This document shows, in pieces, positions 6,370 through 36,002 of a stretch of 64,000 nucleotides of DNA. The DNA comes from Bacteroidota bacterium. GTDB lineage: Bacteria; Bacteroidota; Ignavibacteria; Palsa-1295. Positions within the stretch are counted from its first letter, which is position 1. Each line of letters begins with the position of its first letter. Location of the stretch: positions 1 through 64,000 of the forward strand of contig JAUZNX010000017.1 in the NCBI GenBank assembly GCA_030706745.1, written 5' to 3'. The notes under the pieces were generated by a model. It saw only the letters and a list, made by a program, of their open reading frames with translations. It did not search any database and had not been told where the DNA came from. The translations under genes and the position numbers were made by a program.

Positions 6370-7665
6370 ATGCCCTCGAATTATTCTCCACTCCCACTCG
6401 AGTCTCCTTTGCTCGCAGTCGAGCCTGAAGTCGATCACCGCAAGCTGTACCGGCTGCCCTGGAATCTCGCCGATAACGCGATTTCGTGGCTCGAACCGAC
6501 CTCGCAGTGTAACTTGGCGTGTGATGGCTGCTATCGTGAGAATGTCACAAAGAGCCACAAGCCCCTCGAACAGGTCCGCGAAGAGATTGACACCTTCTTA
6601 CGTCTTCGTAATTCCGATGGCATCTCGATCGCTGGTGGCGAACCGCTGATGCACCCCGACATCGTCGAGATTGTGCGACACGTCGCAAAGCGTGGCGTCA
6701 AACCCGTCATTAACAGTAATGGTGGACTCCTGACGAAGGATCTGCTTCACGAACTAAAGATGGCCGGGGCCACCGGGTTTACCTTCCACATCGATAGCAA
6801 ACAAGGCCGGCCCGGATGGAAGCATGCAAACGAGCTTCAACTCAACGATCTCCGGATGCACTTTGCCGATATGCTCGCCGATGAAGGTGGACTCTCCTGC
6901 TCCTTCAATGCGACCGTCTACGATGATACGCTGCACTATGCGCCCGAACTTGTCGAGTGGGCTGGAAAGAATATCGATAAAGTGCATGTGATGGTCTTTA
7001 TCCTGTATCGCGCCGCCGCGCCACAGATCCCATTCGATTGGTATGCGGGCGCGAAAAAAGTGGACATGAACGATCTCGTCTACGGCGAGACGCAGGAGCG
7101 CAAAGTCGATCTTCAGGCTACCGATGTTGTCCACGAGATTCGCAGGCGGTTTCCGGAGTTCAATCCCTGTGCGTACCTGAACGGCACCGAAAAACCGGAT
7201 TCATTCAAATGGCTGCTCTCCGGACGGATCGGCACGAAGGAGAAAGTATACGGCTACGTCGGCGCGCGCTTCATGGAGATCAATCAGGCGGGCTACCATT
7301 TCCTGAAGGGCCGGTACCTTGGGTATGCCTCCCCTGGCACGACCAAACTGGGACGCTCGATGATGCTCCTTTCGCCATTCGACAAAGGCGCGCGTAAAGT
7401 TGCCGGCGCGTATGCCAAATCCGCGCTGCACAATCCGGCGCGGCTGTTCAAGGGGATGCACTACCAGTCCATCATGATTATCCAGCCGGTGGACTTCCTC
7501 GAAAACGGTCAGCAGAATATGTGCGATGGCTGTCCGGACATGACTCTGCATAACGGGCAGCTAGTCTGGTCGTGCCGCATGGAAGAGTTGAAGCAGTTTG
7601 GATGCTGGGTCAGGACGGTGCCGAAATCAAATCTCACACAGATTGAAGCACCAAGCGAAAATTAG
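6370..7665 (+). CDS. radical SAM protein
   Basis: The product has 431 residues. Near the N-terminus is CNLACDGC (C47, C51, C54), the CxxxCxxC signature that binds the 4Fe-4S cluster and S-adenosylmethionine, followed by GISIAGGEPLMHP, the GGE box of the SAM site. The C-terminus has further cysteines (MCDGCPDM, SCRMEE, FGCW) that could hold an auxiliary cluster, as in SPASM/twitch-type enzymes. The start is placed at 6370 because a ggaggt site sits 4 nt before this ATG; an in-frame ATG at 6328 lacks one. It is monocistronic with no substrate peptide or pathway gene beside it, so the reaction is unknown. Hopanoid HpnH-like enzymes were considered, but the cysteine context differs. Confidence 0.9.
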   Translation: MPSNYSPLPLESPLLAVEPEVDHRKLYRLPWNLADNAISWLEPTSQCNLACDGCYRENVTKSHKPLEQVREEIDTFLRLRNSDGISIAGGEPLMHPDIVEIVRHVAKRGVKPVINSNGGLLTKDLLHELKMAGATGFTFHIDSKQGRPGWKHANELQLNDLRMHFADMLADEGGLSCSFNATVYDDTLHYAPELVEWAGKNIDKVHVMVFILYRAAAPQIPFDWYAGAKKVDMNDLVYGETQERKVDLQATDVVHEIRRRFPEFNPCAYLNGTEKPDSFKWLLSGRIGTKEKVYGYVGARFMEINQAGYHFLKGRYLGYASPGTTKLGRSMMLLSPFDKGARKVAGAYAKSALHNPARLFKGMHYQSIMIIQPVDFLENGQQNMCDGCPDMTLHNGQLVWSCRMEELKQFGCWVRTVPKSNLTQIEAPSEN

Positions 7666-30198: not shown

Positions 30199-30251
30199 TG
30201 TATTTTATGCAACTCCTGGAGAGCGGCGAAGGTGTCCAAACAAAGTATTTC

Positions 30252-30280
30252 TTGACTTTGCCTCGAAATTGTTGTATTTT
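30252..30280 (+). promoter_or_regulatory. sigma-70-like promoter of the T9SS cargo gene
   Basis: TTGACT (30252-30257), a 17-bp spacer and TATTTT (30275-30280) lie 24 bp before the ATG at 30305. This is the best-formed promoter seen in the window. Position and spacing are read from sequence; use is inferred. Confidence 0.6.
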
Positions 30281-30304
30281 GTGACAACTAATTCTTTAGG
30301 TCCA

Positions 30305-32320
30305 ATGAGTAAGCTCTATATTCTGTTAGCTGCGGTATTAGTTATCACGTCTCAAACATCTCGATCCGTTGCTCAGATGGTCGACCGATGGGACTTGTGC
30401 GAAGACACAACCACCATGCAGTTCGAGACCTTCGGACCGATCTTCTCAGCGGCTTCCCCATCTGATATTGCACAGATCGGACTTCCAATTTGGCGCGCGA
30501 GTTCTGGTCGCGTTCTCCGCCATTCATCCGATAGCGGGCGCACCTGGCAAGAGATCTTTACCAAGCAAGAGGGGTGGGACCGATGGATTTCCGTGGTGCA
30601 CCCGAGCGCTTCCAACTACATTATCTATGGCGATACGGAGGATTACTACGGCCAAGACCGCAACGGCAACTATTTGAATCGGTATCGAGCGTATTTCTTG
30701 CTTTCCTCGGACGTGGGGGCAACCTGGACGCAGATGTATTTGGATACAAACACCATCTTGCGGTCTGTTACGATGCTTACACCAACCTATGGTGCGGCTA
30801 TTGTGATTCACGTGAGTAATGTGCATGATTCGCTTCCGGGGTTGCTCGCCGATGATATGATTGTTACGACCGACGGCTGGAAGTCATGGACCACGCACCC
30901 GTTTCCGAGCGGTGTCCGAGGAAGCCAACAACTATTCTGTTTCCGGCCGGGCGTGTTCGGGGTATCGACTTGGCTCAATAGCAACGGGGACTCGATGCGG
31001 TACCTGAAGACGCTTGATGGCGGCCTCACCTGGCAAACACATGGCTCGATGCCGGTCGTGGCGGATATCTACTTCCTCAATGAAAATCTCGCATGGGGCG
31101 CTGGGACTGACTGGCACGTCAAACCCCAAAATCCCCTACTCATCCAGACAACGGATGGAGGCGCCACATGGATTACGAGATTGGATCGAGACGTCTCAGT
31201 CCTGCATTGGGGCGAAGGGCTCAACCAAGTGGCATTCGGCGATAGTTTGCATGGGATTGCATGCGGTTCCAGGATTCTCGAAACAACGGATGGAGGTGTT
31301 ACATGGAGTTCTAATCAACCACCATTCGATGCATTCTCTCGACAGAATGGCGGCATGAACATTCAGGGGCTCATTATGCCTGCTGCCAATTTTGCCTTGG
31401 CAGTGTCAGGCTCGCCGGGGATTCGCTTCATTGGTCAGCAGCGACTTGCGTTGCCAAATCTTCACGAGCATGATCCGGGGCCAATGGCGATCGCGCCGAC
31501 TACTGTGGCATGGGTACCTGTGACCGGCGCAGTCCGCTACGAACTACAACTCGCGATCAATCCGCCGTGGGCCGGATCGGCGCAGAAAGTGTTTGACTAT
31601 GTTTCGCTTGACACTGTCATTGCAGATACACTATGTTCATTCACGCCGATTCCCGCTGAGACGTATTATGCTCGCGTCCGAGCGATCGGACAACAGAGCT
31701 TGGATACCAGCGATTGGCGATGGAGTGGCGAGTGGTATCAACTACTCTCGATGTTCAACACTGTCTCGAAGGCAGGGATGCAACTGCCACCCAGAGTTCT
31801 CGAACCAGCGCTTGGGGCAACTGTCGACGGACATGTCCATTTGGTCTGGTCCTCGGTACCAAACGCAGTTTCGTATGCCGTCCGGCTGGCGAAGGCGGAT
31901 TTCACCCCACCGCGTTATAGTACGGTCATGGATACGACATTGGATGTCTCGGATCTGACCCCCAATTCTACCTATTACATTCAGGTGGAAGCGAACATGG
32001 CAAACGATGCAACTGACTGGTCGTATAACGGCTATTATTTCCTGACCGAACCTTCGGCGAATGTTCCATTTGTCTCAACTCGCGATCAGTTGTTTGTTTA
32101 TCCAAATCCAGCTAGCGATGAGGTCCATATCTCGCTCGGTGAGGATCCTGCTGCTCTCCGAGTCCGGATCATCGATTTGCTCGGACATGTTCTCCACGCG
32201 CCAATCACAGCGGAAACGGGCGGCTTCGCGATCGACGTGCACGCACTTCCATTCGGTGTATATGAGGTCGTTGTTTCCGGCAAAGACACTCGGACCTTCC
32301 GCTTTGTGGTGGAGCACTAA
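30305..32320 (+). CDS. T9SS cargo: BNR/YCF48-like propeller with fibronectin-like domain
   Basis: The product has 671 residues. MSKLYILLAAVLVITSQTSR..AQ is a signal peptide. Residues ~40-380 carry Asp-box propeller blades (SSDVGATWTQMYL, KTLDGGLTWQTH, QTTDGGATWITR, ETTDGGVTWSSN). Residues ~385-590 hold two fibronectin-III-like units (AVRYELQLAINP, YYARVRAIG; SYAVRLAKADFT, YYIQVEANM). The C-terminus is a T9SS sorting domain (FVYPNPASDEVHISL, AIDVHALPFGVYEVVVSG). It is exported through the Por system; the ligand is unknown. It is alone in its transcription unit, divergent from pgpH. Confidence 0.92.
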   Translation: MSKLYILLAAVLVITSQTSRSVAQMVDRWDLCEDTTTMQFETFGPIFSAASPSDIAQIGLPIWRASSGRVLRHSSDSGRTWQEIFTKQEGWDRWISVVHPSASNYIIYGDTEDYYGQDRNGNYLNRYRAYFLLSSDVGATWTQMYLDTNTILRSVTMLTPTYGAAIVIHVSNVHDSLPGLLADDMIVTTDGWKSWTTHPFPSGVRGSQQLFCFRPGVFGVSTWLNSNGDSMRYLKTLDGGLTWQTHGSMPVVADIYFLNENLAWGAGTDWHVKPQNPLLIQTTDGGATWITRLDRDVSVLHWGEGLNQVAFGDSLHGIACGSRILETTDGGVTWSSNQPPFDAFSRQNGGMNIQGLIMPAANFALAVSGSPGIRFIGQQRLALPNLHEHDPGPMAIAPTTVAWVPVTGAVRYELQLAINPPWAGSAQKVFDYVSLDTVIADTLCSFTPIPAETYYARVRAIGQQSLDTSDWRWSGEWYQLLSMFNTVSKAGMQLPPRVLEPALGATVDGHVHLVWSSVPNAVSYAVRLAKADFTPPRYSTVMDTTLDVSDLTPNSTYYIQVEANMANDATDWSYNGYYFLTEPSANVPFVSTRDQLFVYPNPASDEVHISLGEDPAALRVRIIDLLGHVLHAPITAETGGFAIDVHALPFGVYEVVVSGKDTRTFRFVVEH

Positions 32321-32655: not shown

Positions 32656-34248
32656 TCAGTACTTTTCCAGGAATTGGGTGAGGCTATCCGTCTTGCTGAG
32701 TCCGAATTTCTTGCGGATGCGATAGCGATGATTCTCGATATTGCGGATCGAGAGCGAAAGCAGCTTCGCAATGTCTTCGGAGCCCAGGTCCAATCGGATA
32801 AACGGGCAGATCTTTCGCTCCATCGGCGTAAGGTCCGGGTGAGCTCTCGCGAGGTTCAGACCAAAATCCGGATGCACAGACTTGAACTCGGCATTGAACG
32901 CTTCCCAATCCGCTTGCAACTCGGGCATGGCTTTGAGCCGTTCGCGGACCTGCATCACCAGGGGATCGCTGGCCGATGATCGGCGCATCATGGCGCGCAA
33001 ATCGTCCTGAAACTGGGCAAGTGCCTCACGCTGCTTGATGAGATGCCGCGTCTTCTCCATGAGTTCGCGCTCCTTGCGCTCGAGCTCGATCCGTAGCAAC
33101 TCAGCTTGCCTCGCCCCCTGCTCGGCCTTGACTTGCTCCGCTTCGTAATCGTGACGCAGCTCGTGGAATTCCAAACGGCTCTTGAGCAACTCCTTATCGC
33201 TTTCGGAAACAAGCGCGTTGTATTGCTCGAGATACTCGTATGCTTTCTTGTATTGATTCAGCTCCTTATGAACTTCGTGCAGCGTGTGGAGGGCTATCTT
33301 TTGAACGTGGACATATTCCGACTTCCGCGCCTCTTCCATTCCGAGACGCGCATGTTTTAGTGCAAGTTGATTCTGGTGAGTCTTGAGATAAAGCTCAGCG
33401 AGTATCAAGAGGGTATTAGCCCTTACATTGCCTCCTCTCGGGTAGGTTGCAAGCGAGAGTGCTTTCTTGTATTGCTGTTCAGCCTCTTTCCATCGCTCAT
33501 TCCCTGCCTCGACCTTTCCTAATAATGTATGGACAGCACACCACATTGGGAGGTTTTCTGGCGGCAATGACTGCATGACATCGGATAGGAGCTCGATGAC
33601 CCGATCATACTCCTGTAGTTCGATAGCAACTGTTGAAAGATGAACTTTAGCCCGATTGATCTCGGCTTCGCTATTCAGCGTGAGCGCCGCCTGAAGGCAA
33701 CTGTCGGCATAATTCTTTGCTTTCGAAAGGTTGCCCGCAGTAAGAAACAATTCACGGAGTTTTGCAAGAACATTTACTTGAAGACGCAGATACCCTCCCT
33801 GAAGCGCGAGCTGCAGCGATCTTCCGAAATAATCCGCCGTTTCTTCGTAGACCCCATAGACGGATGAGACAATCCCGAGCGTATAATAGCTTACTGCAAT
33901 CCGATTCCTGTGGTCCGTCTCAAGGGCAAGCTTTAGTGCGTTTTCTTCAATGGCAGCGGCGATCCTGTGTTTGCCCTGTCGAAGGAGACCAAGGGCTTCC
34001 CCGTGCAGAGCATCCGCTAGTAAACGCTTATCCCCGGTTGTGATGGCAATTTGTTTCGCCTCCTCAAAGTATGTTGCTGATTCTTTATTGAGATCAAACA
34101 GCGCCGCACCGAGAAGGAAAGCTGACCGCGCTCGGTCAGTCGACCCAGGGAGAGATACTTCATAAAGTCGTTCGATATCGGCCTTCAACTGGCCAACCGC
34201 AACAGACGTATAGTACATCTGTTCAACTTCATTGAGAGAATGCGCCAT
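32656..34248 (-). CDS. TPR protein with C-terminal LuxR-type HTH
   Basis: The product has 530 residues with no signal peptide. Residues ~20-330 are TPR helices (ADALHGEALGLLRQGKHRIA, NRIAVSYYTLGIVSSVYGVY, NERWKEAEQQYKKALSLA). A coiled coil follows (about 335-410, rich in E/K/R: ELLRIELERKERELMEKT). The last ~65 residues are a LuxR HTH (LTPMERKICPFIRLDL, EDIAKLLSLSIRNIENHRYR). There is no receiver domain. Such TPR-LuxR proteins are transcription regulators common in Bacteroidota. It is divergent from two small genes and shares its HTH style with the regulator at 35283. Confidence 0.88.
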   Translation of the reverse strand: MAHSLNEVEQMYYTSVAVGQLKADIERLYEVSLPGSTDRARSAFLLGAALFDLNKESATYFEEAKQIAITTGDKRLLADALHGEALGLLRQGKHRIAAAIEENALKLALETDHRNRIAVSYYTLGIVSSVYGVYEETADYFGRSLQLALQGGYLRLQVNVLAKLRELFLTAGNLSKAKNYADSCLQAALTLNSEAEINRAKVHLSTVAIELQEYDRVIELLSDVMQSLPPENLPMWCAVHTLLGKVEAGNERWKEAEQQYKKALSLATYPRGGNVRANTLLILAELYLKTHQNQLALKHARLGMEEARKSEYVHVQKIALHTLHEVHKELNQYKKAYEYLEQYNALVSESDKELLKSRLEFHELRHDYEAEQVKAEQGARQAELLRIELERKERELMEKTRHLIKQREALAQFQDDLRAMMRRSSASDPLVMQVRERLKAMPELQADWEAFNAEFKSVHPDFGLNLARAHPDLTPMERKICPFIRLDLGSEDIAKLLSLSIRNIENHRYRIRKKFGLSKTDSLTQFLEKY

Positions 34249-34385: not shown

Positions 34386-34751
34386 ATGAGTCAAGGAAGA
34401 ATTGTTTATTTAGGTTATCTCAGTTCTTACGTGAATCCGTATCGGATCGAAGTGGATTACGTTGATGGAGCTGGAACTCCGAACAGCTATTCAAGCTCCG
34501 CCTTCTCGCAAGCACCAGGAGTAATCTTTGCAATAGATGGGCTTTCGACCATAACAGCCGTTCGCGTGTTCGACGCTGTCACTAACATCGTTCAAGGTCA
34601 GTGCAATTCTTTCAGTGCTACGTGTGGTAGCTGCTGGCCTAATGCACCGATGGTTGGCGCAGGCACACTTAAGATCGTCTGGGATCCCTCTGTGAACATT
34701 GTTGTAATCACTGATGAAGCTTTTCTTGTACCACCGCCTGAAGCTCGCTGA
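34386..34751 (+). CDS. small orphan protein
   Basis: The product has 121 residues beginning MSQGRIVYLGYLSSYV. It has no signal peptide. Strand-rich sequence (YRIEVDYVDGAG, VIFAIDGLSTITAVRVFD) leads to a short Cys cluster (QCNSFSATCGSCWP) and ends with a Pro-rich tail VPPPEAR. No family is recognised. It is divergent from the TPR-LuxR gene (137-bp gap containing a TATCTTTG box at 34306-34313, which fits the Bacteroidota -7 consensus TAnnTTTG). It lies 87 bp before the G-tract gene and probably shares its transcript. Confidence 0.6.
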   Translation: MSQGRIVYLGYLSSYVNPYRIEVDYVDGAGTPNSYSSSAFSQAPGVIFAIDGLSTITAVRVFDAVTNIVQGQCNSFSATCGSCWPNAPMVGAGTLKIVWDPSVNIVVITDEAFLVPPPEAR

Positions 34752-34838
34752 TCCGGAAGCAGAATGTGAGAACAGGTTTTTCAAATTTCTTGTCAACGTC
34801 CAGGTCGTCTGGACTTCACTAACTCAAAATAAGCTAAC

Positions 34839-35224
34839 ATGAAGAATCTACGTCGCTTTAAGCTAAGCTGGGGGGGGTAATTCTCGCCCTCGGTTGCATC
34901 TTGTTCTTTTCCACCACTAATCGCGCGAGACCGCTCGATGATAATGAGGTGGATATTAATAACTTCAGTTCGCACAACATCGACAATACGATTGTGCTCG
35001 GCGGTGGTGACTCGACAACCGTTACAGCTACAAACACTAGCGCCACAACGGTTGACATCGGAACATCTTCCTTTTCAGGTCTATTAGTACTGGGCAGCTA
35101 TGTGCTCGCCGGCCAAACCGATACACTTGTTCCGCCGTGGGGTGGTCATCTTATTGTCACTGTAAAATCACATTGCTCCGGGCAGGCTACTGTCGTTGTC
35201 ATGGGCGACGATGCATTACTCTAA
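34839..35224 (+). CDS. small exported protein with a frame-breaking G8 tract
   Basis: ATG 34839 opens MKNLRRFKLSWGG and then meets TAA at 34878 because of a run of eight G (34870-34877). With nine (or six) G the frame joins the long downstream frame and yields a proper signal/anchor segment VILALGCILFFSTTN followed by ~95 residues of Thr/Val/Asp-rich mature protein ending VVVMGDDALL. As sequenced, only the downstream frame (from an ATG at 34901) is open. The basic start plus hydrophobic core across the junction makes a coincidence unlikely. It may be phase-variable, a pseudogene or a sequencing error. It is flanked by two related HTH regulators. Confidence 0.6.
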
Positions 35225-35282: not shown

Positions 35283-35735
35283 CTACACCCATGGCTCGTT
35301 AGCCAGGTCGATCGTTTGGAACAGGACGCCAGGGAGGAGCCACCGGCCGGATGAGCGTCCATCCTGGGCGCTGGACCGGTGGCTCGCCGGGATCATCCGT
35401 TGACCTTGGATGCCCGATGTGTGTCCTGGCTTGGGCGATAGAGCATGAGCCGATCGCGGTTGAGGTGAGATTACGCGCTCGCTTCCGGGACCCCTACCAT
35501 TGGTCCCCGGTTGGGACGATGTATTCGGGCTGAGTTTCTTCCCAATCCTATAGCGACTATTCTCAATCGTCCTGAGGGAACAGCCACAGAGCTCCGCAAT
35601 TTCGCGGTCGCCAAGACCGCAGGCGACAAAAGTCATGATTCGCAACTCCACTTCGCTGAGCATAGGATACTCGCCCCGGAGTTCATTCAGACATTGGGTT
35701 TGCATAGGCGTCAGGTTCAGTTTTAGAATTTTCAT
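35283..35735 (-). CDS. short LuxR-type HTH protein
   Basis: From ATG 35735 (MKILKLNLTPMQTQC) the product is 150 residues. Residues ~25-70 are a LuxR HTH (LSEVELRIMTFVACGLGDRE, IAELCGCSLRTIENSRYRIG), close in form to the HTH of the TPR-LuxR protein at 32656 (both have RxIENxRYRIxKK). There is no receiver or sensor domain. The C-terminal ~75 residues are a Pro/Gly/Ser/Arg-rich low-complexity tail ending NEPWV, which may be a frameshift product or a real tail. An upstream in-frame start would add 21 residues. It is convergent with the G-tract gene. Confidence 0.7.
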   Translation of the reverse strand: MKILKLNLTPMQTQCLNELRGEYPMLSEVELRIMTFVACGLGDREIAELCGCSLRTIENSRYRIGKKLSPNTSSQPGTNGRGPGSERVISPQPRSAHALSPKPGHTSGIQGQRMIPASHRSSAQDGRSSGRWLLPGVLFQTIDLANEPWV

Positions 35736-36002
35736 GTAAGCATCGGGTCGCGCGGACAATCCATCACCGTGATTGATTGTCCACTGAGAACGATACAAAA
35801 ATGCATGGTTTGCCAGCTCATCCGTTACTCTATCACTACTCTATTTTTGTGTCCATGCGAAAGCCTCCTTCGTTTTCTACGGCGCATATAAATAGGCTTG
35901 GAAGGACTCAAAATCCACAAAAAAGCGTTGAAGCGCCGACCCCGTTTTAGATACCCGTATCAAGTACCGAGTCAAGAGCAACGAATAGATTCTCGCTGCT
36001 TT

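Follow-up and report, generated by a model that had tools for sequence, protein, structure and literature searches.

A run of eight G at positions 34870–34877 of the window, the 64-kb stretch of DNA that was analysed, separates the start of a small gene from the hydrophobic core of its putative signal peptide. The locus is rather likely to be a translational phase-variation (contingency) gene for a predicted exported protein, assembled in the OFF state. Random switching between on and off is the probable role of the run, because in sister species similar G-runs split or join signal peptides that belong to unrelated secreted proteins. The original prediction had been of a phase-variable surface protein; a phase-variable exported protein was retained as the best reading, with support from the genus, whereas the word "surface" was unproven, the signal peptide itself being a prediction.

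The ATG at 34839 opens MKNLRRFKLSWGG, and the TAA at 34878–34880 ends frame 1 right after the G8, which covers codons 11–13 and on the two sides of which the reading frames differ. The other frame (codon register 34880) starts two codons 5' of the tract, reads through ILALGCILFFSTTNRARPLDD and is stop-free up to 35222–35224. Inspection of the positions bore out the earlier statements that the tract puts a TAA directly after MKNLRRFKLSWGG and that one added G restores a continuous 128-residue protein, since a net +1 shift gave a 128-residue product. The parts of the locus are as follows.

34386–34751, + strand: 121-residue open reading frame immediately upstream, without family match and with a weak codon score, which may be a separate small gene

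34796–34812, + strand: inverted repeat GTCCAG-GTCGT-CTGGAC with perfect 6-bp arms in the leader, shortly 5' of the ATG; a possible 5' UTR hairpin

34839–34880, + strand: 5' part, currently read from the sequence as MKNLRRFKLSWGG followed by the stop TAA; the basic n-region of the putative signal peptide

34870–34877, + strand: G8 tract where the n-region meets the h-region; slippage is proposed to occur here

34877–35224, + strand: continuation in the +1 frame, with the core (V)ILALGCILFFS and then about 103 residues rich in T, S, N, V and G; no family match

The joined frames read MKNLRRFKLSWGG-VILALGCILFFS, giving a basic n-region and an uninterrupted hydrophobic core (12-residue hydropathy of 2.42) with a putative cleavage site. 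An internal start in the downstream frame was considered and rejected, as just two codons of that frame lie 5' of the tract, and the earliest start listed in it, TTG at 34901, would lose most of the core. The downstream frame was shown to be without a usable alternative start.

The downstream open frame has about 114–115 codons, and the chance of such a stop-free length was calculated by composition to be ∼0.008. Its codon score was 0.049 per codon, within the 5th–95th percentile range of the window genes (0.012–0.251), and was higher than that of 93% of shadow-frame segments and of 11% of gene segments. Decayed codons downstream of the tract had been named beforehand as the mark of a plain pseudogene; no decay was visible in those of the window gene, although no relative was found to carry the gene. 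Homologs of the mature protein were absent from 60 related genomes, the genome collection, plasmids, viral contigs, Pfam and NCBIfam, and nothing credible was obtained among PDB sequences. The structure model of the mature protein, a single-sequence prediction, had a pLDDT of 36 and was unusable. A search of Rfam gave no match.

The genome from which the window comes (G000) is a Candidatus Kapaibacterium-type metagenome-assembled genome of 3.81 Mb in 30 contigs. The relatives recovered by a gyrA search were metagenome-assembled genomes as well, labelled Candidatus Kapaibacterium, Ignavibacteriae or Bacteroidetes. The neighbours of the locus are listed below.

30245–32317, upstream: T9SS-sorted protein, matching TIGR04183 above the cut-off

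32656–34248, upstream: TPR-LuxR-type regulator

35283–35798, downstream, opposite strand: small LuxR-type protein

36039, downstream: gyrA

The DNA between the TPR regulator and gyrA was not conserved within the genus, and neither of the two small open reading frames there was matched by the sequence 5' of gyrA in the relatives. Because this neighbourhood is unconserved, there was no orthologous site for the window tract, and no ortholog of the window gene was found in the related genomes searched.

The flanks of tracts of at least G8 were compared in seven genomes of the genus. A G11 at G000:C4:177026–177036 (L043, L085, L165) lies in the signal peptide (...NLRFVAVFAFLLAAML, then GGG..AILKAQ) of an exported protein of >1000 residues, and is OFF with 1092 open codons downstream; the design is that of the window gene, the protein is another one. 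Homologs of this protein carried tracts at the same place in different states, G8 OFF in G002:C3 and G7 ON in G006:C112, and another in G005:C45 had a normal signal peptide without a tract. In G006:C183, a G10 in the ON state was found in a signal peptide similar to that of the C4-type protein, followed by a different mature part. Four Cys-rich exported proteins of ∼200 residues in G002 had G8 or G9 in their signal peptides, two being ON and two OFF. Further tracts within signal peptides were a G8 in G001:C175 (ON), a G10 in G002:C56 (OFF) and a G12 in G002:C52 (ON, short), and a G9 in G006:C218 was located just past a lipoprotein signal (OFF). In G012:C36, which belongs to another genus of the same family, a G10 lies out of frame between a basic start and the signal-peptide core. 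The OFF alleles elsewhere in the genus kept 190–1092 open codons downstream, and such long open frames argue against old pseudogenes.

Two other kinds of tract were observed in this comparison. The G7 of L223 (G000:C15:15260) and the G9 of L112 (G001:C135:9611), apparent homologs from sister species, separate an upstream ATG from the signal-peptide core (MIIALALVAAC and MIVALALVAAC, respectively), and an internal ATG could start either gene whatever the tract length. In the relatives G002 and G006 (L152, L160, L161, L164 and similar), G-runs of 16–37 were seen at or near contig ends, which are probably assembly artefacts or tracts that break assemblies.

The start of the window gene was also found to resemble those of tract-bearing genes in G002. 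Among 32,020 distinct ATGs in the DNA that was retrieved, the closest to the opening 21 bases of the window gene was that at G002:C6:46079, whose gene runs straight into a G9 tract; it matched at 17/21 positions, and the next best match was 15/21. A degenerate start pattern, MK(N/D)LRxF, which leaves out the tract but was derived from these same genes, occurred three times in the seven genomes, namely in the window gene and in two genes of G002, and all three had G8 or G9 directly after it. The signal peptides compared were 37–38% identical, and the mature parts look unrelated. This suggests a common 5' cassette, with convergence on a short basic start as the alternative. We put forward only tentatively the wider proposal that the genus keeps a phase-variable secretome, in which a reusable 5' cassette (a basic MK(N/D)LR-type n-region plus poly-G) would be placed on unrelated mature proteins.

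The tract at 34870–34877 is the sole G8 in the window. The original observation that no other G8 lies nearby thus held for all 64 kb, the next longest G/C run being a C7 at 60886 (+ strand). Shuffling the window by dinucleotides yielded about 1.1 G8 per 64 kb, so the presence of the tract alone proves nothing, and calling it a "classical hallmark" of phase variation was overstated for one tract of such length, given this chance frequency. In the whole genome, six tracts of at least G8 were counted in 3.81 Mb (two G8 and one each of G9, G10, G11 and G14), far below the shuffle prediction. Poly-G/C runs were generally under-represented in a survey of 99 prokaryotic genomes (PMC2831843). Tracts of exactly G7 numbered 26; counts drop from 26 to two between G7 and G8 and then level off, a pattern suggestive of maintenance of the longest tracts. 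A visible gene break was found at 0/26 of the G7 runs, and general homopolymer error was therefore not evident. Loss of mismatch repair as the cause of the long tracts was unsupported: a MutS_I match was present in 7/7 genomes of the genus, so that a repair-deficient hypermutable background was not indicated.

Three of the long tracts in this genome lie in other settings. The G14 at G000:C1:23284–23297 (L041) is at the 3' end of a gene for a sigma-70 region-4 protein, and one of the frames past it reads DRIKVFDPGEHRITFDRGTLPSGMYCYRLETG, by eye similar to a T9SS-type C-terminal tail, without significant Pfam match; C-terminal switching is possible there. The G8 at G000:C4:211812–211819 (L044) is in frame in a gene whose product, ∼1500 residues of N-T-F-x-G head-like repeats, is probably located at the cell surface. 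The G10 at G000:C2:218849–218858 (L042) lies ∼190 bases 5' of the gene for a cytochrome-c-like exported protein, possibly in its promoter or leader.

The frequency of predicted signal peptides at long tracts was compared with that at 6814 G3–G7 runs from the same loci. The lenient rule required a start within 35 codons, a basic residue, a 12-residue hydrophobic core near the tract and at least 60 open codons downstream, in any frame. It was passed by 18/97 tracts of at least G8 versus 361/6814 of the shorter runs (5.3%; Fisher p ∼4e-6), and a strict rule by 13/97 versus 187/6814 (p ∼4e-6). When the window tract was left out, the p values were 1.4e-5 (lenient) and 1.7e-5 (strict); when, in addition, two homologous families were collapsed, they became 0.003 and 0.013, respectively. 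The control pass rate of ∼5% means that some of the passes are chance. One of them, a C9 at G000:C9:64823, is probably a false positive, as the C strand appears to be coding. The enrichment of long G-tracts at signal peptides is statistically supported, and moderate after these corrections.

Several other explanations of the locus were weighed. A one-time indel at the G-run could have produced a young pseudogene under no selection to switch, and the chance frequency of G8 for this composition, the species-specific nature of the gene, which has no conserved ortholog, and its present OFF state all fit such an event; but the downstream frame is undecayed, OFF alleles in the genus retain 190–1092 open codons, and tracts in signal peptides recur in unrelated proteins in mixed states, so that we regard this account as unlikely. 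An assembly or sequencing error, by which the true tract would have another length and the gene would be intact, appears less probable still. Homopolymers are typical sites of error, the relatives from the gyrA search are metagenome-assembled, and some of their runs of 15–37 G, at contig ends or beside N, look like artefacts. Nevertheless, none of the 26 G7 runs in the genome breaks a gene, long genes of the window such as gyrA are intact, and OFF tracts in signal peptides were found in several independent assemblies.

That the locus is not a gene, and that a chance open frame lies beside a chance G-run, might be suspected from the lack of homologs in everything searched and from a coding score between weak and moderate, which exceeds that of just 93% of shadow frames. 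The hydrophobic layout of a signal peptide, the 114-codon open frame (p ∼0.008) and the resemblance of the start to the tract-bearing G002 genes make this very unlikely. The two frames could also be joined during translation or transcription, by a ribosomal frameshift or by slippage of the polymerase, so that a fixed fraction of full-length protein would always be made. The run could be slippery, and a leader hairpin is present, though 5' of the start; however, Rfam gave no match, and the variation of tract lengths and frames among paralogs and homologs fits slippage of DNA, leaving this explanation with hardly any probability.

The reading of the locus as a phase-variation gene would work as follows. 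The poly-G lies between the positively charged n-region and the hydrophobic core of a putative N-terminal signal peptide, and slipped-strand mispairing would alter its length, linking the start codon to the frame that encodes the core or severing it. The ON frame would tolerate glycine codons between the n- and h-regions and would yield a small exported protein with ∼100 residues in its mature form; at other lengths translation would halt before the core, and the length in the current assembly would be OFF. Bet-hedging against phage, predators or changing substrate is a possible benefit. The slippage rate, reversibility, export, surface location and any benefit are what we infer. Comparison across the genus takes phase variation at this locus beyond a plausible guess and makes it probable, short of proof for the window gene.

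The best-documented cases of repeat-driven phase variation come from host-adapted pathogens. In the opa genes of Neisseria, CTCTT pentamers lie in the signal-peptide codons and many paralogs switch independently. The window gene likewise has its repeat in the leader-peptide codons, and independent switching of this kind also appears to occur among the four Cys-rich proteins of G002; the opa repeat, however, is a pentamer and not a homopolymer, and it belongs to unrelated proteins of a host-associated pathogen. In Helicobacter pylori, oipA and similar outer-membrane protein genes are switched by a CT-dinucleotide repeat in the signal-peptide codons (PMC10564699). There, as proposed here, a hypermutable repeat in the region coding for the signal peptide shifts the frame when its length changes, so that an exported protein is switched ON or OFF, but the oipA repeat is a dinucleotide and is experimentally and epidemiologically established, whereas here a mononucleotide G-run was found in one genome of an uncultured environmental relative within the Bacteroidota. 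For Campylobacter, G ≥ 7 was used as the cut-off for candidate phase-variable tracts (PMC6321876). Both cases have poly-G of at least seven in coding sequence, a length modulo 3 that sets ON or OFF, and several loci per genome. The Campylobacter tracts vary demonstrably between isolates, whereas one genome per species was available here; unlike Campylobacter, the present genomes had a MutS_I match and few tracts (six per genome), several of them specifically in signal peptides.

No report joining Kapabacteria and phase variation was found in the literature, the coverage of which was incomplete; the kind of mechanism is already known, and its instance in this lineage is apparently unreported. 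If the reading is true, repeat-driven phase variation would extend to an uncultured soil and permafrost lineage, and free-living bacteria would show random variation of their surface or secretome. If the tentative proposal of a secretome cassette is also true, each cell would randomise which exported proteins it shows.
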